Of a DNA stretch of 64,000 nucleotides, positions 9,137 to 23,154 are shown piece by piece (within the stretch, counting starts at the first letter, position 1; each line of letters begins with the position of its first letter). The stretch is taken from contig NZ_CP139979.1 in the NCBI RefSeq assembly GCF_034424525.1, positions 558,001-622,000 on the forward strand, written 5' to 3'. The stretch comes from Sphingobium yanoikuyae. Lineage in GTDB: Bacteria; Pseudomonadota; Alphaproteobacteria; Sphingomonadales; Sphingomonadaceae. The position numbers and the translations under genes are program-made. A model generated the notes under the pieces. It did no database searches. It saw only the letters and a list, made by a program, of their open reading frames with translations, and was not told the DNA's origin.

Positions 9137-9213
9137 GCACCCGTAGCTCAGCAGGATAGAGCATCAGATTCCTAATCTGAGGGCCATGGGTTCGAATCCC
9201 GTCGGGTGCACCA
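9137..9213 (+). tRNA. tRNA-Arg (anticodon CCT)
   Basis: The 77-base cloverleaf has acceptor arms GCACCCG and CGGGTGC, a D arm with AGCTCAG, an anticodon stem TCAGA/TCTGA around the loop TTCCTAA (anticodon CCT, reading AGG), and a T arm containing GGTTCGAATCC. The 3' CCA at 9211-9213 is encoded. tRNA genes are frequent integration targets, but I see no integrase next to it. Confidence 0.97.
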
Positions 9214-9432
9214 TTTTCCTGAAATTATAATGACTTACGCGCTCATCGGTGGGGCGCGAGCGTGACATTTTGTTGCGCGTGACGCTGTTGCATGACGGTC
9301 ACATGTTTCACGAAAATTTCAATGTGTGACAAGGATATTACAATATCGCTTGTCTTGCGTCCCAGTTGGGGCACCCTGTGCGCAGCGGCGCGGGAGAGGG
9401 CCCGCGTCCTTCTGAACAGGGACCGAAGCTTC

Positions 9433-12400
9433 GTGAAAAAATATAGCTTTCTGACATTTACTGCCCTGGCGGGCAGTTTCGCCTTTGCAACGGGAGCCAT
9501 GGCGCAGGGGAGCAGCGCCACGCCGCAGACGACCGAAGCCGATCGCAATCCGGAAGCGACTGGGGAGGTCGCGTCGTCGATCGTCGTGACCGGTTCGCGC
9601 ATTCGTCGTCCGAATCTGGAAGCCAATGCGCCGATCACCACCATTTCGGGCGAGCAGTTCTTCGAGACGGGCCAGCTGTCGGTCGGTGATACGCTGAACG
9701 AGCTGCCGCAGCTGCGCAGCACCTTCAGCCAGCAGAACTCGACCCGCTTCCTGGGCACGCGCGGCCTCAACCTGCTCGACCTCTACGGCCTGGGCACGCA
9801 GCGCACGCTGGTGCTGGTCAATGGTCGCCGCCATGTCGGTTCCGACGTCCTGTCGAACGGCGTGTCGCCCGACACCAACACCTTCCCGACCGACCTGATC
9901 GAACGCGTCGACGTGATGACCGGTGGCGCATCGTCGGTCTATGGTTCGGACGCGATCGCCGGTGTGGTCAACTTCGTGCTGAAGCAGGACTATGAAGGCG
10001 TCCAGGTGCGCGGCCAGAATGGCGCGAGCAAATATGGCGACGCCGGCAACCGCTATGCTTCGATCCTGGCGGGCAAGAATTTCGCCGATGGCCGCGGCAA
10101 TATCGCGATCAACGTCGAATATGCCCAGTCGGACGATTTCTACGGTTCCAACCGTCCGACCATGCGCCAGAACAATGCGTTCATCGTCGTCGACACCGAT
10201 CCGGCCGGCACCGCCAACGGTTCGGACGGCGTGTTCGACCGCCAGTTCTTCCGCGACGTGCGTTCGGCCACCATCTCGCTGGGCGGCCAGACCGGCATCT
10301 TCCAGAGCGCCGGCAACGCGGCCTGCGGTCGTGATGCGGTAGGCGCGGCTTTCGTCTGCAACATGCTGTTCCAGCCCGACGGCACGCTGGTGCCGCAGAC
10401 CGGTGAACGCATCGGCCTGGGCCCCAACGGCAATTATGTCGGCGGCAACGGCACGAGCAGCCGCGAAGGCAAGCTACTGGCGCTGAGCCCCAATCTGGAA
10501 CGCATTTCGGTCAACCTTATGGGCCATTATGAGTTCAGCCCGTCCTTCGTGCCCTTCTGGGAAGCGAAATATGTCCGGGCCGATGCCTATGGCTCGCAGA
10601 GCGGTCCCTTCTTCTCGCAGGGCACGACGCTGGGCGATCCGGGCGGCCGCGAACGCATCCGTCTCGACAATCCGTTCCTGTCGGACCAGGCCCGCACGCT
10701 CCTGACCCAGCAGTTGCTGGCGACGACCGTCAACGCCAATACCGGCGCAGCCCTGACGGCGGCGCAGCTCGACGCGCAGCGCGCCGCGATCAACGCCGGC
10801 ACGTTCCGGTTCAACCTGCGTCGCAACTGGGTCGATTTCGGCATTCGTGACGAAGCCATCCGTCGTGAAACCTATCGCGCCGTCGTCGGTGTCCGCGGCG
10901 ACTTCAACGACGACTGGAACTACGAACTGTCCGTCAACTATGGCGAGCATCGCGAGAAGAATGTCGTCAAGGGCAATGTCAACGTACAGCGCTACCTGCT
11001 GGGTATCGACACCACCCGCGACGCCGCCGGCAACATCGTCTGCCGTTCGAAGCTGAATCCGACCGGTACGGTCGACTATGGCGCGGATGCGGCCATCCTG
11101 GCCGCCGACATTGCGGCATGCGTTCCGATCAATCCCTTCGGCCAGGGCTCGGTCTCGCAGGCTGCGCGCAACTATGTGCTGATGGACACGGTCGCGACAG
11201 GCAAGATCAAGCAGTTCGTGGCGTCCGGCTTCGTGGCGGGCGATACCAGCGCCTGGTTCGAACTGCCCGGCGGCCCGGTCGGCTTCTCGGTCGGTGGCGA
11301 ATATCGCCGCGAGAAGGTCTATTATGACCTGGATGAGCTGACCCAGCAGGGCTACGCCTTCTACAACGCGATCCCGACCTTCCGCGCCCCGGCGTTCGAA
11401 GTGAAGGAGCTGTACGGCGAAATCAGCGTGCCGATCCTGAAGGATGTTCCCTTCTTCAAGGAACTGACCGCCAATGCCTCGGGCCGCGTGTCCGACTATA
11501 AGGGCGCGACCGGCACCGTCTACACCTGGGGCACGGAACTGACCTGGACCCCGGTTCAGGACATCCGCTTCCGCGGCACCTACAACAAGGCGATCCGTGC
11601 GCCCAACGTGGTCGATCTCTATTCGGAGCAGAGCCAGAATTTCGCGCCTGCGCCGAACGATCCCTGCTCGCTGCGCAACATCGGCACCGGTTCCTCCTAT
11701 CGCGAGGCCAATTGCCGTGCGGCCGGCGTGCCGACCAACTATGACTTCGTCTACACCTCGTCGATCGAGCTGATTTCGGGCGGCAACCCCAATCTGCGGG
11801 AAGAAACCTCGACCAGCTGGACTGTCGGTGGCGTTCTGCAGCCCCGCTGGATTCCGGGCCTGTCGCTGTCGGTCGACTATTTCAACATCAAGGTGGACGA
11901 CGTCATCACCGCGCCGTCGGCACAGCAGATCCTGAACGCCTGCTATGACGCACCCAATCTGGACAATCCGTTCTGCGGCCTGTTCACGCGTAACGGCGCG
12001 ACCGAAGGTCCGTCGGGTGAAGCGGCCTATCAGGTGCTTCAGGGTTCGTTGCAGCAGACCACGCTCAACTATGCGAAGCTGACCGCCGAAGGCATCAACG
12101 CCGAACTCAACTATCGTCATGATTTCAGCTGGGGTTCGGCTGGTTTCAAGACGGTCTACACGCGCATGATCAAGCGGAACGAATATCTCAATCCGGCTGA
12201 TCCGAGCTTCCGCAACCAGATCCTGGAAGAACTGGGCGATCCCAAGAACCAGGTCAACTTCAACGGCGACGTGAAGTTCGGCAAGCTGACGATCGGCTAT
12301 CAGATGCGCTGGATCGACAAGATGTACCTCAACACCTATGAGGACTATAACTCGGTCAACGGGCTGCCGCCGCAGAATGCGGACTATGCCTCGCTCAAGA

Positions 12401-12591
12401 AATATCCCGACGTCTTCTATCACGACGCACGTATGGGCTATGACGTGACCGAAAAGTTCAACATCTATGTCGGTGTCGACAATATCGGCAACCGCGCACC
12501 GCCCTTCGGCCTGACCGGCGTGGGTGCGGGTTCGGGCATCTACGACGTCCGCGGCCGCTATGGCTATATCGGCGCCGTCGCCAAGTTCTGA
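9433..12591 (+). CDS. TonB-dependent receptor
   Basis: A 1052-residue outer-membrane receptor. A signal peptide with core FLTFTALAGSFAFATG ends at about residue 25 (AMAQ). The N-terminal plug carries SIVVTGSRIRRPN, the form typical of sphingomonad and xanthomonad receptors, then GTRGLNLLDLYGLG and RTLVLVNGRRHV. The rest is a 22-strand barrel ending in the aromatic residue Phe. The GTG start at 9433 follows AGGGA by about ten bases; the frame is open to 9292 but the added residues do not resemble a signal sequence. The ligand is unknown. A 2OG oxygenase gene follows after a terminator. Confidence 0.93.
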   Translation: MKKYSFLTFTALAGSFAFATGAMAQGSSATPQTTEADRNPEATGEVASSIVVTGSRIRRPNLEANAPITTISGEQFFETGQLSVGDTLNELPQLRSTFSQQNSTRFLGTRGLNLLDLYGLGTQRTLVLVNGRRHVGSDVLSNGVSPDTNTFPTDLIERVDVMTGGASSVYGSDAIAGVVNFVLKQDYEGVQVRGQNGASKYGDAGNRYASILAGKNFADGRGNIAINVEYAQSDDFYGSNRPTMRQNNAFIVVDTDPAGTANGSDGVFDRQFFRDVRSATISLGGQTGIFQSAGNAACGRDAVGAAFVCNMLFQPDGTLVPQTGERIGLGPNGNYVGGNGTSSREGKLLALSPNLERISVNLMGHYEFSPSFVPFWEAKYVRADAYGSQSGPFFSQGTTLGDPGGRERIRLDNPFLSDQARTLLTQQLLATTVNANTGAALTAAQLDAQRAAINAGTFRFNLRRNWVDFGIRDEAIRRETYRAVVGVRGDFNDDWNYELSVNYGEHREKNVVKGNVNVQRYLLGIDTTRDAAGNIVCRSKLNPTGTVDYGADAAILAADIAACVPINPFGQGSVSQAARNYVLMDTVATGKIKQFVASGFVAGDTSAWFELPGGPVGFSVGGEYRREKVYYDLDELTQQGYAFYNAIPTFRAPAFEVKELYGEISVPILKDVPFFKELTANASGRVSDYKGATGTVYTWGTELTWTPVQDIRFRGTYNKAIRAPNVVDLYSEQSQNFAPAPNDPCSLRNIGTGSSYREANCRAAGVPTNYDFVYTSSIELISGGNPNLREETSTSWTVGGVLQPRWIPGLSLSVDYFNIKVDDVITAPSAQQILNACYDAPNLDNPFCGLFTRNGATEGPSGEAAYQVLQGSLQQTTLNYAKLTAEGINAELNYRHDFSWGSAGFKTVYTRMIKRNEYLNPADPSFRNQILEELGDPKNQVNFNGDVKFGKLTIGYQMRWIDKMYLNTYEDYNSVNGLPPQNADYASLKKYPDVFYHDARMGYDVTEKFNIYVGVDNIGNRAPPFGLTGVGAGSGIYDVRGRYGYIGAVAKF

Positions 12592-13695: not shown

Positions 13696-14595
13696 TCAGT
13701 GGAAGCGGATGCCGATGCGACCGACGAAGCCGCTATAGTCGCGGGTGGGGACGTTGGAATCATTGCTGGCATAGCCGGCCTCGCCGAACAGGTTGATCCG
13801 CCGGGTCAGCGCCTGTTCGACGCCGCCGGTCAGGCGCAATTGCGTATCCTCCCGCTTGAAAGGGTAAGCGTTGGAAAAGGCCGCCTTGTAGTTGCGATGG
13901 ACCAGATAGAGCCGGCCATAGACTTCCAGCCCCTCGCGCAGCGGCGTGCGGGCGATCAGCATCGTGCCATAGCCATTATAGCTGAAGCGGTTGGCCTGCG
14001 CATTGGCGTGCAGGCCCAATAGCGACCCCATGATGCGGGTCTGCCCGCCGCCTGGCCGCCAGAGATGGCGCAATTCGCCCAGCCACTCGCTCTGGTCATA
14101 GCCCTGGAAGCGCTGTTCGCTCTGGTTGCGATAGCCGTAACGCAGGCGCACCGTGCTGGTGTGGGCAGGATTGTGGCGGTGGATGAGCTGCACATCCATG
14201 CGCGCGCGATCGAACACCCGCCCATCATCGCCCAGCACATATTCATAGCTGGGCTGGAAGCGCAGCCTGGTCTGCCCCTTGGCCGCCAGTGGCCAGTCGA
14301 TCTGCGCGCCGACGGTCAGCGGATAGCGATTATAATCGGCTTCGGAGGGATAGATGTGGGCGCCCGCGGACGCGCGCAGGATCGCCGGGCCGGCATCATA
14401 GGCCAGGCCCACTTCGCCGGTGAACAGCGACTTGATCCGATCCTGATCGGGACTGTTGTCGACCACGTCGGGTGGCACCACGTCGAGCCCGTAGGAGAGT
14501 TCACCCTCAACCGACAGGTCGCCCGGCTTGGCCCAGCCGGCCTGGGGCATGGCGGCAAGACCCAGCAGGGCGGCGGGAATGACGATCTGTTTCAT
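13696..14595 (-). CDS. outer-membrane beta-barrel protein of the polysaccharide operon
   Basis: A 299-residue protein with a signal peptide (LLGLAAMPQAGWA, cleavage near residue 22), then alternating amphipathic strands with many aromatic and charged residues, ending in GRIGIRFH. About 12 strands can be traced, as in small outer-membrane porins or surface-assembly barrels. It is the last gene of the four-gene operon. Its ATG overlaps the stop of the GT2 gene by four bases. By position it could be the outer-membrane pore for the polymer, but it has no TPR domain like BcsC and its sequence does not reveal a named family to me. Confidence 0.75.
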   Translation of the reverse strand: MKQIVIPAALLGLAAMPQAGWAKPGDLSVEGELSYGLDVVPPDVVDNSPDQDRIKSLFTGEVGLAYDAGPAILRASAGAHIYPSEADYNRYPLTVGAQIDWPLAAKGQTRLRFQPSYEYVLGDDGRVFDRARMDVQLIHRHNPAHTSTVRLRYGYRNQSEQRFQGYDQSEWLGELRHLWRPGGGQTRIMGSLLGLHANAQANRFSYNGYGTMLIARTPLREGLEVYGRLYLVHRNYKAAFSNAYPFKREDTQLRLTGGVEQALTRRINLFGEAGYASNDSNVPTRDYSGFVGRIGIRFH

Positions 14596-16463
14596 GAGAC
14601 CTCCGGCGATGAAGGGGGGGATGGCGGGGGAAGCGGATCGGGCGGCGGGCTTTGCGGCCAGGGGTCGCGCCCGATCTGGATGCGTGTGGACATCGAGGTG
14701 ATCGGGATGGTGAGCGCGGATTCGAGCGTGTACCAGGCGCGCAGCGCGCGGAAGAAGATATAGGGGGGCAGCGCCAGCAGGGCGCGGGGTCGATTATTCG
14801 CCAGGATCGCGATCGCCGCGGCAACCATGGGTGATCCGACCAGCACGGCAACGATCGCCTGCCAATGGGGCAAAGCGATCGATCTCGATGTGATGAGCAG
14901 TTCAAGCAGGCCGAAGATGACGAGCGGGATCATCATCGCCCGGCGCGCGGTGTTCATCAGCATATAGGGCAGGACCAGCTTGCCGCGGATGCTGAAGTCC
15001 GGGGCGCTGATGAGCGAATGGGCGCGCGCGCTGACATGATAGACCGACCGGAACCAGCGCAGCCGCTGTTCGCGCAGATGGGCGAAGCTGGTCGGCACTT
15101 CGGACACATAGCTGACCCGATGATCGACCAGCGTGCGATAGCCCAGTTCGGCGATGCGCAGCGAGATGTCGGTATCCTCGCCATTCATGCCGGAGGCGAA
15201 CTGGCCGACCCGCCGCAGCGCGTCTGCCCGATAGATGACGAACATGCCGGGAATGCCGACCAGCCCGGCCATGACGCTGAGCGCGGGCGAATAATAGCCA
15301 TGCTTGACGATCACCTCGACCAGGCGCCCCGCATCGAAGATCGCGCCGCCTGGCGGCAAGGGCACGCCGCCGACCGCGCCGGCATTGGGATCGGCGAAAT
15401 TCTGCATTGCCAGCGTCAGATTGTCCTCGCCCACCAGCGTGTCGGCGTCGATCCGCACGATGAACGGATAGCGCGCATGCAGCACGCCTTCGTTCAGGGC
15501 ATGGGCCTTGCCGGGCGTCGCGACATGCACGACCCGCCCCTTGAGCGCGGAGCAGGCGTCGATCACGGCGCGGGCGATGTCCGCCGTGCCATCGACCGAG
15601 CCATTGTCCATCACGATCAGTTCGACCTCCGCACCATAATGGGCGGCGGCGCGGTCGATATGCTGGATCGTCTGGCCGATCACATATTGTTCGTTGAAGG
15701 CGGGCACGATGACGCTGACCGGGGCGGCGAAGTCGGGGCGCGACAGGCGATAGCGCTCGGTGACGGCAACGATATAGAGCTGGGCAAAGGTCAGCAGCAC
15801 GAACAGGATGACGCCCGGACCGATGCCGCCGAGCAGGCTGATGTCGCGCATCTCCTCGAACAGCAGGATCGGTTGCTGTGCCGCCCAGATGGCGATGATC
15901 GCCGCGATCGTGCCGGCAATGGCGAGGCGGTAGAGGGCGCGCCCCTTGGGCTGGGGGCCGCGCAGCACCGGCACCGGGGCAGGCATGGTGCCGCGCCGGA
16001 TGATGACGAAGGCGAAGACCGCCATGCCCATTAGCCCGGCCATGACCTGGATCGCGGCCAGCGAAAAGGGGGTGCCGACATAGGCGAACAGCGCCACGCT
16101 GCCGAGGTCAAGGATGGTGCAGAGCGCCATGTAGCGCAGGCATAGGTCGAGGCAGAGCAGGATGCGCGCCCGCACCGATCCCGCCGCATAGAGCGAGAAG
16201 GAGATGAAATAGGAATAGATGAAGGTCCGGATCGAGATCGCGCTGAAGCCCAGATAGGGGCCGAACACATAATCATGGGTGCGGAAGAAGCGGTCGAGAT
16301 AGCCCAGTTCGAACAGCCATAGCTGGAACAGGGCGATGGTCGTGAAGGTCAGCAGCAGAGCGGGTGCGCGCAACATCGATACCGGACGGGCCAGTCCGCC
16401 GGCGACACTGTCCGTCGACTGGAAATTGGCCTGGGTCCGGTCATAATCCGGGGGCGGCGGCAT
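14592..16463 (-). CDS. processive-type GT2 glycosyltransferase (cellulose-synthase-like)
   Basis: A 623-residue membrane glycosyltransferase. About six hydrophobic segments precede the catalytic domain (residues 30-235), the GT2 domain covers about 247-480, and further membrane segments follow at about 490-580. The processive GT2 signature is complete: Asp286 (VMDNGS), DAD at 339-341, GEDTD at 428-432 and QRLRW at 466-470. This is the BcsA/hyaluronan-synthase type. The C terminus is a Pro/Ser-rich tail and no PilZ domain is present, unlike BcsA. ATG 16463 shares one base with the upstream stop codon (TGATG). The donor sugar is not known; the operon suggests UDP-sulfoquinovose or a mixed polymer. 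Confidence 0.88.
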   Translation of the reverse strand: MPPPPDYDRTQANFQSTDSVAGGLARPVSMLRAPALLLTFTTIALFQLWLFELGYLDRFFRTHDYVFGPYLGFSAISIRTFIYSYFISFSLYAAGSVRARILLCLDLCLRYMALCTILDLGSVALFAYVGTPFSLAAIQVMAGLMGMAVFAFVIIRRGTMPAPVPVLRGPQPKGRALYRLAIAGTIAAIIAIWAAQQPILLFEEMRDISLLGGIGPGVILFVLLTFAQLYIVAVTERYRLSRPDFAAPVSVIVPAFNEQYVIGQTIQHIDRAAAHYGAEVELIVMDNGSVDGTADIARAVIDACSALKGRVVHVATPGKAHALNEGVLHARYPFIVRIDADTLVGEDNLTLAMQNFADPNAGAVGGVPLPPGGAIFDAGRLVEVIVKHGYYSPALSVMAGLVGIPGMFVIYRADALRRVGQFASGMNGEDTDISLRIAELGYRTLVDHRVSYVSEVPTSFAHLREQRLRWFRSVYHVSARAHSLISAPDFSIRGKLVLPYMLMNTARRAMMIPLVIFGLLELLITSRSIALPHWQAIVAVLVGSPMVAAAIAILANNRPRALLALPPYIFFRALRAWYTLESALTIPITSMSTRIQIGRDPWPQSPPPDPLPPPSPPSSPEVS

Positions 16464-18052
16464 CAGGGGGCAGGGGCTGTTGCGCGCAGCGGGGTGGTCG
16501 CCGGCGTGGCGGGCGGCGGGACGGGAACCGGGCGATGGACCGTCACCAGCAGAGCCACGGCCGCCCAAGCCGCCGATGCATCACGCGCGAAGGGTTCCAC
16601 CATGACGCCTTCGCGCCGGTCATCGGGGAAGTGGACCAGCCATTGCCGTCCGGCGGGGCGGACCCGTGCCAGCGCGCCGGCAATGTCGCCCGTCAGCACC
16701 TCGATCGTGGTGCCCGGCCTTTGGGTGCCGAAGGCAAGGGCGCTGGGCCGCATCTGACCCAGCAACTGGGCTGTGGCCTGTCCCTGCGGTGCGGTCAGTG
16801 CGCCGGCCTTCAAGGCGACCGGGCGATTGGCCGCAAGCAGGCCCCGCAACTGGACGATCGCCGGCACAAGCCGTTCGCCGCCGCCCCGCAAGATGGTTTC
16901 CGGCAGCATTTCCGCGGCGATCAGACGGCGCGCGCCGCACCGCATTTCTTCCCGCTCATGTGCGGTCAGGGTGATTTCCAACTGGTTGCGATCCAGATGA
17001 TCGGCGGTCGGCAGCGCGATCGAATGGCTGAAGCGCTGATCCTCATCGGTCAGCGTGCGGGTGAAGAGCAGATGATCGTTGAGCGTCACGAACAGCGCGG
17101 TGCGGGTTTCGGCGATCGGCCCGAGCAGCAGGCGCAGGTCGAGCGCGGACGGCAGTTCGCCATTGGGCAATTGCCCAACATCATAGCGATAGCGCCAAGT
17201 GGTTTCCCGATCGAAGCGGCGTGCGCCGCCATTCTCGATCGCGCTGACCAGGCTGACCGGATAGCGCAGCGCCTGAGTCCGGTCGGGACGGATGGCTGCG
17301 CCCTTGTCGATGTCGGTCAGCGCCTGGGCGGCATAGCCGCTTTCGCCGAAATAGATGCCATAGCCTTTCTCGCTCAGCCGCGCGGCGGCGAGCAGGGTGG
17401 CGAGATCCGCCACCTTGTCATCCTCGTCCCATTTGACCGGGATCAGGTCGCCCCACAAGGCGAGCCGGTCGCGGGTGGTGGACGGCGCCTTGTCCAGTTT
17501 GAGGTGCAGGCCGCTTTCCGGCAGGATCGTGACGACGGCGGCCAGCGCTTCATTGGGGGTGCATTCGGCCATCGGACCACGCCCGACAAGCGCCAGTTTG
17601 ACCTCCAGCTGGCCCGAGGCCAGTTCGGCGGGGGTCAGTTCGATCTTGGCACGCCGTTTGAAGCGCCCCTGGTTCAGCACGACGTCGGCGCGCTTGACCC
17701 CGTTGATGCTGATCCGCAGCGCACCCTCGGCATCGGGCACGGCGTCGGTCGCGAAGGCGATATTATAGGTGCCGCTGAGCGGCCGGCTGTCGGTCGGCAG
17801 GCGGAAGACCTTGCTAGCATAGGCCGGAAAGCCGGACAGGATCAGGGGATTGTCCGGGTGCGACTGCGCCACGAACACATCGCGTCCATCGACATCGATG
17901 AAGGGGATGGAGCCGCGCTGATAATCCTCGAACAGAGGGTCGCCCATCCGGACGTTGCGGCCCATGATCGTGTCGAACAGGCCGCTCTGGCCGATCGCGA
18001 TGAGCAGGCCGATGAACAACAGCGCCTGAAGGCAGATGACCCATAATCTCAT
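16463..18052 (-). CDS. BcsB-like periplasmic polysaccharide-synthase subunit
   Basis: A 529-residue protein with an N-terminal membrane segment or uncleaved signal (about residues 4-22) and a large beta-rich periplasmic region. Two repeated jelly-roll-like halves, each with a phrase like LRISINGVK or LFVTLNDHLLF and then a Cys-containing segment (AECTPNE, MRCGARR), resemble the carbohydrate-binding domains of BcsB. A short hydrophobic stretch near residue 500 may be a weak C-terminal anchor before a Pro/Ala tail. It overlaps the neighbouring genes by four bases (ATGA) and one base. BcsB guides nascent cellulose through the periplasm; the same role here is inferred from similarity and from the adjacent GT2. 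Confidence 0.72.
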   Translation of the reverse strand: MRLWVICLQALLFIGLLIAIGQSGLFDTIMGRNVRMGDPLFEDYQRGSIPFIDVDGRDVFVAQSHPDNPLILSGFPAYASKVFRLPTDSRPLSGTYNIAFATDAVPDAEGALRISINGVKRADVVLNQGRFKRRAKIELTPAELASGQLEVKLALVGRGPMAECTPNEALAAVVTILPESGLHLKLDKAPSTTRDRLALWGDLIPVKWDEDDKVADLATLLAAARLSEKGYGIYFGESGYAAQALTDIDKGAAIRPDRTQALRYPVSLVSAIENGGARRFDRETTWRYRYDVGQLPNGELPSALDLRLLLGPIAETRTALFVTLNDHLLFTRTLTDEDQRFSHSIALPTADHLDRNQLEITLTAHEREEMRCGARRLIAAEMLPETILRGGGERLVPAIVQLRGLLAANRPVALKAGALTAPQGQATAQLLGQMRPSALAFGTQRPGTTIEVLTGDIAGALARVRPAGRQWLVHFPDDRREGVMVEPFARDASAAWAAVALLVTVHRPVPVPPPATPATTPLRATAPAP

Positions 18053-19299
18053 CGGCCCGCTCCCGCCACGCCGGGCAGGACGGGGCGGATCGTCTCGATC
18101 GGCCCCGCCTGGTCGAGCGCCGCCTGCTGCTCCCGCGTCCAGGCCGTGCGCGCCGGGATGTGGCGCTGGTCGACGCGGTCGGCATAACGGGCGGAAATTT
18201 CCAGCGTCTCGGCCAGCAGGCCGTCGGTCAGCAGGATCGGGTCGAGGCCCAGCGCGCGGAAGGTGGCGTTGCTGACGTCGAGATCATTTTCTGCCGCTTC
18301 CTTGCGGGGGTTGGGCAGATATTCGATCGCCGCCCCGGTCAGGTCGGATACCAGACGGGCTAGGTCGCGCACGCGCAGGCTTTCGGCGATCTGGTTGATG
18401 ATCTTGACCCGGTCGCCGCGCTCCGGCGGATGGGCAACGGCGAGCGCAATGCAGCGCACCGTGTCCTGGATATTGAGGAAGGCGCGGGTCTGGCCGCCGG
18501 TGCCATGGACGGTCAGCGGATGGCCAAGCGCCGCCTGCACCAGAAAGCGGTTGAGCACGGTGCCATATTCGCCCTCATAATCGAACCGGTTGATGAGCGC
18601 GGGGTGGCGCCGGGTCTCCGCCGTTTGGGTGCCCCAGACGATGCCCTGGTGCAGGTCGGTGATGCGCAGCCGGTCATTCTGGGCATAGAATTGGAACAGC
18701 AGCTGATCGATCGACTTGGTCATGTGATAGACGCTGCCCGGCCGGGTCGGATACAGGATTTCCCAGTCATGCGGGGCACCGGCATCGTCGTGGATCTGGA
18801 CGGTCAGATAGCCTTCGGGGATTTCGAAGCCGGCACCGCCATAGCCATAGACGCCCATGGTGCCGAGATGGACGAGATGCGCGTCGAGGTCGCAGGCGAC
18901 CAGCGCGGTCAGGACATTGTGGGTGCCGCCGACATTGTTGTTGACGGTATAGCGCTTCTCGGTCGGTCCGCGCATCGAATAGGGGGCGGCGCGCTGTTCG
19001 GCGAAATGGACGATCACTTCGGGGCGCTCCTCCGCCAGCAGGGCAAGGAGGCGGGCATAATCCTGGGCGACGTCGAGATAATGGAAGCGGATGGTCCGCC
19101 CGCTTACCTGGTGCCAGGCATCCAGCCGCTGGTCGACCATGGCGATCGGCGTCAGGCTGTGGACGCCCAGTTCCGCGTCGATCCGGCGACGCGAAAGATT
19201 GTCGATGATGACGACCTCATGGCCCAGTTCGGACAGATGCAACGCTGTCGGCCAGCCGCAAAAGCCGTCGCCGCCGAGCACGAAAATCTTTTTCGCCAC
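18049..19299 (-). CDS. UDP-sulfoquinovose synthase homologue (SQD1/SqdB family)
   Basis: A 416-residue extended short-chain dehydrogenase/epimerase. The Rossmann motif GGDGFCGW at 9-16, HFAEQRAAPYSM at 98-109, catalytic Thr147, Tyr191 and Lys195 (YHMTK), DLHQGIVWG and the long block FLVQAALGHPLTVHGTGGQT correspond closely to plant SQD1 as I recall it. SQD1 converts UDP-glucose and sulfite to UDP-sulfoquinovose using bound NAD. The gene starts with GTG behind AGGAG and is first in the operon. Sulfolipid genes (sqdX, sqdC, sqdD) are absent here; downstream genes encode polymer synthesis and export instead. Confidence 0.88.
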   Translation of the reverse strand: MAKKIFVLGGDGFCGWPTALHLSELGHEVVIIDNLSRRRIDAELGVHSLTPIAMVDQRLDAWHQVSGRTIRFHYLDVAQDYARLLALLAEERPEVIVHFAEQRAAPYSMRGPTEKRYTVNNNVGGTHNVLTALVACDLDAHLVHLGTMGVYGYGGAGFEIPEGYLTVQIHDDAGAPHDWEILYPTRPGSVYHMTKSIDQLLFQFYAQNDRLRITDLHQGIVWGTQTAETRRHPALINRFDYEGEYGTVLNRFLVQAALGHPLTVHGTGGQTRAFLNIQDTVRCIALAVAHPPERGDRVKIINQIAESLRVRDLARLVSDLTGAAIEYLPNPRKEAAENDLDVSNATFRALGLDPILLTDGLLAETLEISARYADRVDQRHIPARTAWTREQQAALDQAGPIETIRPVLPGVAGAGR

Positions 19300-20070: not shown

Positions 20071-21357
20071 ATGCTGAAAAAAATCCGCACCCAGGACGTG
20101 AAACTGGGGATGTTCTTGCACAAGCTGGACGGGTCGTGGTTTTCTCACCCCTTCTGGAAGCGCAAGATGCTGCTCGACGATCCCGAGCAATTGGCGGACC
20201 TGCATGCCAGCAAGGTCGAGTGGGTGACGATCGACGTGTCGCGCGGTGCGGATGTGGCCCCGGCCCAGCCGGTGCCATCCCGCGTGATGCCGATAGCCGA
20301 GCCGCGCGAACGGGTGTTCGGCCGTGCCGGGCCAACGATCGTGCGCCGCGCCGCGCCCCAGCCGGTCGACCGTCCCTTCGATCCGCTGTCCAAGGACAAG
20401 CTGCCGATCCGCGCCGAGATGGTCCATGCCCAGCGGCTGGCGCGCAAATCGGGTCGCACCATGCGCAAGCTCTATGAGGATGTGCGGCTGGGCAAGGCGG
20501 TGAAGGCGGCCAAGCTGGAAACCATGGTCGACGAGATTTCCAGCTCCGTGCAGCGCAACCCGCACGCCTTCATGGCGATCACGCGGATGAAGAATAGCGG
20601 CGAATATCTGTATCAGCATGCGCTGTCGGTCTGCGCGCTGATGATCGGCCTTGCCCAGCAGATGCACCTGTCGCCCGACGATATCCGCAAGGCCGGCCTT
20701 GCCGGCCTGCTGATGGACATGGGCATGGCCCATGTGCCGCAGGAAGTGTGGGACAAGGATGCGCCGCTGACGCCGGAGGAGTGGGACGTGGTCAAGAGCC
20801 ACACCACGCTGGCGCATGAATTCCTGACCCTGGGCGGCGAAATGCCGGCAGAAGTGCTGGATGTGTGCCTCAACCATCATGAGCGGCTGGACGGCAGCGG
20901 CTATCCCAATGGCCTGGCCGGCGAGCAGATCGGCATGTTCGCGCGCATGGCCGCGATCTGCGACAGCTATGACGCCATGACGTCAAATCGCTTGCACCGC
21001 AGTGGCGAAGATCCGTCGCGCGCCTTGCTGAAGATCGACGAGGATGGCGGCGCGCTGTTCGACGCGGAAATCTTCCAGGCGTTCCAGCGCGCGGTCGGCA
21101 TCTATCCGATCGGGTCGCTGGTGCGGCTGCGATCGCACCGGCTGGCGATCGTGGTCGAGCAGAATCCCGACGACCTGACCCTGCCCAAGGTCCGCCCCTT
21201 CTATTCGCTCTCCGATCGGGCGTTCGAGAAGAGTGAGGATATTGACCTCGGCAATTGCTTCGGTGCGGACCAGATCATCACCCGCGAGACGCCCGAAGGA
21301 TGGGATATGAGCGAATGGCCGGCGATGAGCGCCAAGCTGCTGGCAGTCGCAGGCTGA
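20071..21357 (+). CDS. HD-GYP domain protein with DUF3391 and altered HD motif
   Basis: A 428-residue cytoplasmic protein. An N-terminal DUF3391 region (residues 1-130) precedes an HD-GYP domain (about 165-370). The GYP signature DGSGYP is intact (274-279), as are His183, His244, His269-His270 and Asp298. The central HD motif, normally HDxGK, reads MDMGM at 215-219, so one metal-binding His and the Lys are replaced. HD-GYP proteins degrade c-di-GMP with two or three metals; this one may be inactive or serve as a binding protein. The gene stands alone between minus-strand genes. Confidence 0.88.
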   Translation: MLKKIRTQDVKLGMFLHKLDGSWFSHPFWKRKMLLDDPEQLADLHASKVEWVTIDVSRGADVAPAQPVPSRVMPIAEPRERVFGRAGPTIVRRAAPQPVDRPFDPLSKDKLPIRAEMVHAQRLARKSGRTMRKLYEDVRLGKAVKAAKLETMVDEISSSVQRNPHAFMAITRMKNSGEYLYQHALSVCALMIGLAQQMHLSPDDIRKAGLAGLLMDMGMAHVPQEVWDKDAPLTPEEWDVVKSHTTLAHEFLTLGGEMPAEVLDVCLNHHERLDGSGYPNGLAGEQIGMFARMAAICDSYDAMTSNRLHRSGEDPSRALLKIDEDGGALFDAEIFQAFQRAVGIYPIGSLVRLRSHRLAIVVEQNPDDLTLPKVRPFYSLSDRAFEKSEDIDLGNCFGADQIITRETPEGWDMSEWPAMSAKLLAVAG

Positions 21358-21978: not shown

Positions 21979-23154
21979 ATGAAGAAGATGGGGGGCGGCG
22001 TTGCCGCCGCTGTGGTTGCGCTGGCCGCGACGGGTGTTCTTGCGGCCGTTACACTATCGGGGGGCGAGGCGGATGCGCCGGACGCACGGGTGATCACCAT
22101 CCCGTCATCGGCCAGTACCGCGCCAGCCGCCAGCACGGGCACCAGCGCGACGGTGCCGACCACGACGGCGGCGCAGGCCTATGCTGCGGCGGCAGCAGCC
22201 GCCGTGCCGGCGGCTACGGCGACCAGCACGTCCAAGATTCTACCGGGCATCAATATTTCCGGTGGCGAATTTGGCGGCACCGGCGGCAAGCTGGGCACAA
22301 ACTATATCTATCCCAGCACGGCGGAAATGCGCAGCTATGCGGCGCAGGGCTTCAAGCTGCTGCGCGTGCCGTTTCGCTGGGAAAGGTTGCAGCCCAATCT
22401 CTATGGCCCCTTGTCGGAGGTCGATCGCAAGGCGCTGAAGTCCGTCGTGACCCAGGCCAATGCGCTGGGCCTGACGGTGATCCTGGACATGCATAATTAT
22501 GGTGCGCGCCAGGTGAACGGCTCTGCGGCCCTGGTCGGCAGCGGCACGCTGGCGACGACGGCGCTGACCAATGCCTGGGTCAAGATCATGGAGGATTATC
22601 GGTCCAACCCCAAGGTCTGGATCGGCCTGATGAACGAGCCAAACCGGCAGACGGCGGCGCAATGGTGGGCCATTGCCGGGCAGGTGACCAAGGATATCCG
22701 CGCCCAGAAGATCAGCAACAAGCTGCTGATCCCCGGCACGGCCTGGACCGGGGCGCATAATTGGGTGAGTTCGGGCAATGCGGCGCAGGCGGTGAAGTTC
22801 GTCGATCCCGGCAAGAATTACGCGTTTGAAGTGCATCAATATCTGGATGCCTGGTCGACCGGCACCACCGACAAGTGCGAGGTCAAGGCCGGCCAGCGCG
22901 TGAATGCGGCGCTGACCTGGGCCGAGAAATACAAGGTGAAGCTGTTCTTCGGCGAGATTGCCGCGTCGGGCCAGCCGCAATGCGCGAAGGAATATCCCGA
23001 CATGCTGCGCCGTCTGAAGACGTCGTCGGCGGTGTTGGGCTGGACCGCCTGGGGCGGCGGCGCCTGGTGGGCCTATGACTATATGTTCCGTCTCCAGTCG
23101 CGCACGACCACGCCGACGGCACATATGAAGCTGCTGCTCGCCAACATGCCCTGA
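21979..23154 (+). CDS. secreted GH5 endoglucanase-like glycoside hydrolase
   Basis: A 391-residue protein with an N-terminal hydrophobic segment (VAAAVVALAATGVLAAVTL), an Ala/Ser/Thr-rich linker (about residues 35-80), and a GH5 catalytic domain. The RVPFRWERLQP block, VILDMHNYGA, the acid-base Glu in WIGLMNEPN and the nucleophile Glu in KLFFGEIAASG are all present. GH5 enzymes of this type cut beta-1,4-glucans. The protein may be secreted or anchored at the membrane by its N terminus. It lies 2.7 kb from the polysaccharide operon and could trim the polymer, as BcsZ does for cellulose; that link is only positional. Confidence 0.88.
   Translation: MKKMGGGVAAAVVALAATGVLAAVTLSGGEADAPDARVITIPSSASTAPAASTGTSATVPTTTAAQAYAAAAAAAVPAATATSTSKILPGINISGGEFGGTGGKLGTNYIYPSTAEMRSYAAQGFKLLRVPFRWERLQPNLYGPLSEVDRKALKSVVTQANALGLTVILDMHNYGARQVNGSAALVGSGTLATTALTNAWVKIMEDYRSNPKVWIGLMNEPNRQTAAQWWAIAGQVTKDIRAQKISNKLLIPGTAWTGAHNWVSSGNAAQAVKFVDPGKNYAFEVHQYLDAWSTGTTDKCEVKAGQRVNAALTWAEKYKVKLFFGEIAASGQPQCAKEYPDMLRRLKTSSAVLGWTAWGGGAWWAYDYMFRLQSRTTTPTAHMKLLLANMP

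Follow-up and report, generated by a model that had tools for sequence, protein, structure and literature searches.

What is UDP-sulfoquinovose, the activated form of a sulfonated sugar known from photosynthetic membranes, used for when the gene of its putative synthase is joined to those of a cellulose-like synthase and an export apparatus? This question is raised by a four-gene operon of Sphingobium yanoikuyae, which lies within positions 558,001-622,000 of contig NZ_CP139979.1, a stretch of 64,000 nt that was analysed as a whole and is termed the window (operon coordinates are window positions). A sequence-only reading had proposed that the operon makes and secretes a polymer containing sulfoquinovose or a sulfonated sugar, and this proposal gains support from the grouping of the synthase with SqdB proteins, from the conservation of the gene set and from the adjacency of sqdB to the gene of a family 2 glycosyltransferase (GT2) in every genome found to carry the latter. 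Hence the operon probably makes and exports a sulfoquinovose-containing polysaccharide, to which a probability of about 70% is given, with the sugar content deduced from the genes. The operon comprises the following features.

18049-19299, minus strand: gene 1, putative sqdB-type UDP-sulfoquinovose synthase with a short-chain dehydrogenase/reductase (SDR) fold, 416 residues, GTG start
16463-18052, minus strand: gene 2, BcsB-like periplasmic protein with an N-terminal hydrophobic segment, 529 residues
14592-16463, minus strand: gene 3, membrane GT2, processive-type polymer synthase, 623 residues from the ATG at 16463
13696-14595, minus strand: gene 4, predicted outer-membrane 14-strand beta barrel, candidate exit pore, 299 residues
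19305-19309, minus strand: AGGAG, likely ribosome-binding site of gene 1, 5 bases before the GTG
18049-18052, minus strand: 4-base ATGA overlap of the sqdB stop and the start of the BcsB-like gene (translational coupling)
14592-14595, minus strand: 4-base ATGA overlap of the GT2 stop and the barrel start

In the proposed mechanism, SqdB would convert UDP-glucose and sulfite to UDP-sulfoquinovose, from which the GT2 would extend a chain, using this donor alone or with UDP-glucose, and would thread it through its own transmembrane channel. The BcsB-like protein, presumably held by its N-terminal membrane segment, would take the chain in the periplasm and guide it to the barrel, and the chain would leave through this arginine-lined pore of the outer membrane. 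The GT2 is regarded as the natural user of UDP-sulfoquinovose because it is the sole glycosyltransferase in the operon. The sequence itself shows the protein families, the coupling of the genes and the conserved, specific association of sqdB with the GT2 gene, whereas the choice of donor, the linkage in the chain, the succession of export events and the homopolymer or copolymer character are deduced.

Families of the four coupled genes

As read earlier, the four genes share the minus strand and overlap by 4 (genes 1 and 2), 1 (genes 2 and 3, with the ATG start) and 4 bases (genes 3 and 4). The mechanically delimited reading frame of the GT2 (14592-16568, 658 residues) begins at a TTG, whereas the ATG at 16463 overlaps the gene 2 stop by a single base (TGATG). 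The ATG, which was our choice, is most probably the true start, because the TTG would mean an overlap of about 106 bases with gene 2 and because 19 GT2 relatives, each read from the start codon nearest to the corresponding point, have 601-627 residues.

The only Pfam match of gene 1 is Epimerase, and the Arabidopsis SQD1 entries rank first among its solved relatives in the PDB (E 1e-95, with the next family at 2.6e-11), the identity to SQD1 being 43.4%. UDP-sulfoquinovose synthases have a published fingerprint, [ST]MG xn Y x3 K (PMC8987622), and gene 1 carries it as T147-M148-G149 ... Y191-x3-K195 among the located residues H98, R103, T147, M148, G149, Y151, Y191, H192 and K195, which bears out the earlier assignment to the SQD1/SqdB type from Thr147, Tyr191 and Lys195. 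Alanine mutants of the archaeal enzyme Agl3 are inactive at His95, Arg101, Met145, Tyr182 and Lys186 (PMC4388408), and H96, R101, M146, Y182 and K186 of SQD1 are kept in gene 1 as H98, R103, M148, Y191 and K195, in an alignment made to SQD1 and not to Agl3, so that Arg101 is matched by number only. A GalE/RmlB-type epimerase or dehydratase was rejected, as no Asp-Glu or Asp-Lys pair follows the catalytic Thr and SQD1 is far ahead of the other solved relatives. Gene 1 is filed as SqdB-like, with its function predicted from sequence, and its family strongly supports the conversion of UDP-glucose and sulfite to UDP-sulfoquinovose. A search for sqdB homologues elsewhere in its own genome found no second member of the family.

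Gene 2 had been called a BcsB-like periplasmic protein, and its Pfam BcsB match does exceed the cut-off (40 bits against 21), though weakly and in part; 15 of 20 gene 2 relatives match BcsB at E ≤ 0.01. Full-length BcsB has a C-terminal membrane anchor. All 20 BcsB-like proteins here have an N-terminal hydrophobic segment, with C-terminal hydropathy maxima of only 0.91-1.54. Comparison of gene 2 with solved structures by phmmer gave nothing above chance.

The motifs expected of a processive GT2 (DAD, GED and QRLRW in the earlier reading) are in place: D291, DAD 339-341, GED 428-430, Q466, R467, R469 and W470, numbered from ATG 16463, are identical in all 20 sequences compared, each of which has 6-9 hydrophobic segments by hydropathy count. 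By structure comparison, the GT2 shares its fold with cellulose and hyaluronan synthases, a similarity from which processivity and a channel are predicted. No PilZ domain appears among its Pfam matches at E ≤ 0.001, and it scores 17.7 bits against TIGR03030, the CelA equivalog, far below the cut-off of 699.1. It may resemble BcsA in its action, yet it was not classed as a BcsA. An ordinary cellulose operon was rejected on this failure of the CelA equivalog and on the presence of a canonical BcsB elsewhere in the genome. Next to the operon, the plus-strand gene 20071-21357 encodes a DUF3391 and HD-GYP protein, likely a cyclic di-GMP phosphodiesterase.

The outer-membrane barrel of the earlier reading is recovered by structure prediction for gene 4, which gives 14 strands at a mean pLDDT of 88.1, with CymA and OmpG as the closest folds and OprP and OprO among the Foldseek matches. 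Eight invariant arginines are predicted to face the pore, an assignment on which they themselves weigh since it used hydropathy, and inside/outside alternation is weak in 3 of the 14 strands (187-199, 223-239 and 267-280), one of which carries the invariant R234. The barrel may thus be arginine-lined and suited to an anionic polymer.

Conservation of the sqdB-GT2 linkage

The GT2 query (E ≤ 1e-60) identified 14 distinct carrier genomes, S. yanoikuyae included, with 6 among the 396 genomes searched in the order, 3 among 385 in the class and 8 among 198 in the family of genome G468. In all 14, sqdB adjoins the GT2 gene, which led us to reject a chance neighbourhood, and 13 also have a BcsB-like gene. 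The sqdB query is met more widely, in 19 of 396 genomes of the order (E ≤ 1e-40, three of them with only a 36-40% match) and in 42 of 198 of the G468 family (E ≤ 1e-100); every GT2 carrier lies among the sqdB carriers, but the converse is false. Among 30 sqdB loci fetched in the G468 family with flanks of about 1.5 kb, 27 have a GT8, 2 a BcsB and 1, G468 itself, the GT2. In loci L141 and L142, sqdB lies on the opposite strand and converges on the GT2 gene, to which it is still adjacent, so the association outlived rearrangement.

Conserved co-occurrence of all four genes, which the sequence-only reading had suggested looking for, holds for sqdB, the BcsB-like gene and the GT2 gene over several alphaproteobacterial families and one gammaproteobacterial genome; it is less marked for the fourth gene, a barrel being detected in 10 of 27 other loci. 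At least 14 of 80 named loci, some of them short, show BcsB-like and GT2 matches; they belong to Sphingomonadaceae, Paracoccaceae, Roseobacteraceae, Devosiaceae, an Aurantimonadaceae metagenome-assembled genome, unassigned alphaproteobacteria and the gammaproteobacterium Alloalcanivorax marinus. The order sqdB, BcsB-like, GT2 on one strand recurs in 19 of 19 other loci of one comparison set, and the named GT2 relatives include Novosphingobium, Erythrobacter and Parasphingorhabdus. The idea that the operon arrived recently as a compositionally foreign island was rejected (GC 0.656 versus 0.655 for the window), yet sqdB was found in none of 60 other genomes of the genus (E ≤ 1e-30), and the operon is therefore accessory in its genus. 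A tRNA-Arg (CCT) at 9137-9292, directly before the TonB-type receptor gene 9292-12591, is a possible integration site.

SqdX is a GT4 and SqdD a GT8. For sulfolipid, Synechococcus uses an sqdBX operon (PMC5638391) and Rhodobacter sphaeroides an sqdBDC operon (PMC11346425). Neither an SqdX- nor an SqdD-like gene adjoins the operon, in agreement with the earlier reading, and a GT8 query, which had no positive control in this genome, found no GT8-type gene in it. How the two kinds of context are related was examined from a scan of genome contigs with gene 1, from which the best 80 of 575 confirmed relatives were taken; these show 61-75% identity to gene 1 and span alphaproteobacteria, cyanobacteria, Bacillota, Actinomycetota, Trueperaceae and others. 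Neighbours were labelled in 103 rows (the window, SQD1 and 101 loci), giving BcsB/GT2 in 20, GT4 in 24, GT8 in 10, the phosphoadenylyl-sulfate (PAPS) reductase family in 11 and other neighbours in 38. These counts rest on tblastn because the gene caller often chose antisense frames; the GT4 and GT8 labels were established by running Pfam on five representatives, and L035 was assigned manually to the BcsB group, as tblastn shows its BcsB and GT2, both missed by the labelling script.

In a quick IQ-TREE tree of the 103 rows, for which a long-branch warning was issued, the 20 BcsB/GT2-linked SqdBs fall in one branch of 21 rows (SH-aLRT 91), which neighbours the GT8-linked branch (joint branch support 85), and the labels require 2 changes against a shuffled mean of 18.5. 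A constraint uniting the 20 rows gave a p-AU of 0.585, the constrained tree scoring higher, so that a single clade is not rejected, though one origin is not proven thereby. Against the earlier concern that gene 1 might group with an unrelated epimerase family, it groups with SqdBs of sulfolipid gene contexts, in a tree that held no epimerase rows. Genome G852 holds two sqdB copies, L151 beside a GT8 and L144 beside BcsB and GT2. It thus seems that a polymer has taken the place of lipid as the sink of UDP-sulfoquinovose, because the BcsB/GT2-linked SqdBs stand next to the GT8-linked branch, have nearly the same conserved positions, and both kinds of copy occur in one genome.

Several other observations concern the sqdB family and its neighbourhoods. 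L044 has the order SQD-GT8-SDR, resembling sqdBDC of R. sphaeroides. In the PAPS group, a phosphoadenylyl-sulfate reductase, which yields sulfite, adjoins sqdB (L024), and genes of this family lie next to sqdB in L024, L032, L057, L058, L089, L102 and others, possibly as a dedicated sulfite supply. Pairs of sqdB and GT4 in Gram-positive non-photosynthetic bacteria (L049, L064, L075, L076, L104 and L107 of Corynebacterium, L038 and L046 of Bacillales, L050 and L066 of Brevibacterium) suggest sulfolipid there. A second SQD1-like set (L015, L029, L030, L031 and L033), which served as tree outgroup only, shows 44-50% identity with plant SQD1 and 35-41% with the gene 1 product, and four of its five members are flanked by GalE/RmlB-like SDR genes. 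In four roseobacters (L054, L065, L101 and L108), a small protein with a molybdopterin-oxidoreductase domain of the sulfite-oxidase type, a hybrid histidine kinase and a LuxR regulator lie directly upstream of the operon and may sense sulfite. At 21979-23154 (plus strand), divergent and 2.7 kb upstream of the operon, lies the gene of a cellulase-like GH5 protein whose N terminus is signal-like; none of the other 27 operon loci has a relative of it. In three sphingomonad relatives, a GH10 hydrolase is divergent from the operon (L120:10658-11770, L122:10017-11129 and L123:10045-11190; mutual identity 57-67%); by analogy with the hydrolase of cellulose operons, it would fit a beta-1,4 glycan.

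A probable sulfonated polymer and its alternatives

Several observations weigh against a sulfoquinovose polymer made and exported by this operon. The best NCBIfam match of gene 1, NF041015 (UDP-sulfoquinovose synthase), reaches 317 bits, below the cut-off of 575; the Synechococcus relative L077 scores 318, also below the cut-off, and since it adjoins a GT4, the cut-off seems to exclude this bacterial SqdB branch. The BcsB match of gene 2 covers only residues 61-192 (about 130 residues), 5 of 20 relatives have none at E ≤ 0.01, and a whole-genome BcsB search reports a separate canonical locus at E 8e-203 and not gene 2. G468 has sqdB-GT2 without a detectable BcsB, L083 groups with the BcsB/GT2-linked SqdBs, yet no BcsB or GT2 was found next to its sqdB, and the barrel, detected in 9 of 19 and 1 of 8 other loci, is less conserved than the other three genes. 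The hydrolase near the operon in the three sphingomonad relatives belongs to GH10, a family known from neutral xylans.

In both structure and sequence, the GT2 is matched best by the mannosyltransferase PcManGT, a likeness that also favours a lipid route, in which the GT2 would transfer one sulfoquinovose to a lipid. The nameable SqdB neighbours are mostly sulfolipid-type glycosyltransferases, by the counts for GT4 and GT8 given above and by the GT8 at 27 of 30 fetched loci. This route would leave the BcsB-like and barrel proteins to do something else, and it is considered improbable.

An unsulfonated polymer, for which the SDR would supply another UDP-sugar (such as a 5,6-ene or 4-keto sugar) or would have drifted, is given the same low standing. 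The archaeal enzyme without sulfite gives UDP-glucose-5,6-ene (PMC4388408, PMC8987622), and the operon contains no sulfite-supplying gene; the genome has five matches to the PAPS-reductase family, however, and sulfite is therefore probably available. Moreover, Agl3 Glu147, whose alanine mutant is strongly impaired (PMC4388408), corresponds to E148 of SQD1 and to Val150 of gene 1, a further point against sulfonation. SQD1 and the five SQD1-like rows have Glu and all 97 bacterial rows have Val, a comparison that did not include the R. sphaeroides SqdB; since the GT4- and GT8-linked rows also have Val, Val150 is not special to this operon. Between the 20 BcsB/GT2-linked and the 34 GT4/GT8-linked SqdBs, 139 positions are conserved in both with a single fixed difference (T365), and the M148 position is Met in 18 of 20 and 32 of 34, respectively. 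The shared positions and single difference make a change in SqdB chemistry unlikely.

Slightly less probable still is decoration of another surface glycan, such as lipopolysaccharide or a protein glycan, with this GT2 making the adduct. In its favour, the N-glycans of Sulfolobus contain sulfoquinovose (PMC4245038, PMC7064770), and the S-layer protein of Haloferax bears SQ-hexose repeats (PMC4343526). Against it, the sole glycosyltransferase of the operon comes with a BcsB-like partner and a barrel of its own, and genes for a lipid carrier, a flippase or a ligase are absent from the operon.

Within the preferred reading of an exported sulfoquinovose-containing polysaccharide, it is a tentative suggestion that the GT2 polymerises sulfoquinovose alone into a beta-linked homopolymer, a 6-sulfonated analogue of cellulose. 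Such a homopolymer might represent a new class of secreted polyanion, its charge borne on a hydrolysis-resistant C-S bond and not on a sulfate ester or uronic acid, and the dedicated machine that makes it, reaching from the inner to the outer membrane, may have arisen when a sulfolipid SqdB gained a polymer synthase as its sink.

Comparison with known systems

Synthase-dependent secretion of exopolysaccharide is a known kind of process, and the product here is probably new. No operon with this exact set was found in the open-access literature, outside which most subscription papers lie, and the earlier reading knew of none either. Sulfoquinovose is so far known from membrane lipids and from protein glycans of archaea; if the proposal is true, it would also be a building block of bacterial exopolysaccharide, would bring additional organic sulfonate into the sulfur cycle and would be the basis of a chemically robust sulfonated biopolymer, with a natural polymer synthase that uses UDP-sulfoquinovose. 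Partner swapping would then have diverted one activated sugar from lipid to polymer, a proposal open to direct test, since the carriers include cultured strains such as Ruegeria atlantica, with Thalassococcus-type relatives that lack the operon as contrasts.

The archaeal glycans of the Agl3 pathway of Sulfolobus and the SQ-hexose repeats of Haloferax likewise direct UDP-sulfoquinovose into a glycan and not a lipid (PMC4245038, PMC4343526), but these are protein-linked oligosaccharides, in contrast to the synthase-dependent secreted polymer proposed here in bacteria. Like sqdBX of Synechococcus and sqdBDC of R. sphaeroides, the operon places an SqdB of the same family, with a conserved active site, upstream of a glycosyltransferase that would use its product, and it differs in that SqdX or SqdD is replaced as the sink by a membrane GT2, accompanied by a BcsB-like and an outer-membrane protein. 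With the cellulose synthase BcsA-BcsB(-BcsC) it has in common a GT2 with DxD, ED and QxxRW motifs and the BcsA fold, a BcsB-like partner and an outer-membrane barrel; it differs in its in-operon nucleotide-sugar synthase, in a GT2 with no PilZ match, in a BcsB-like protein with a predicted anchor at the N terminus and in a 14-strand barrel that stands alone and is not BcsC. The viral and vertebrate hyaluronan synthases differ from it in that the GT2 here has BcsB-like and outer-membrane partners and a donor that would come from SqdB. AlgE is an arginine-lined outer-membrane channel for alginate, and the predicted inward arginines of the monomeric barrel resemble those of AlgE and of the phosphate channel OprP, from which it is set apart by its 14 strands and by its closest folds.
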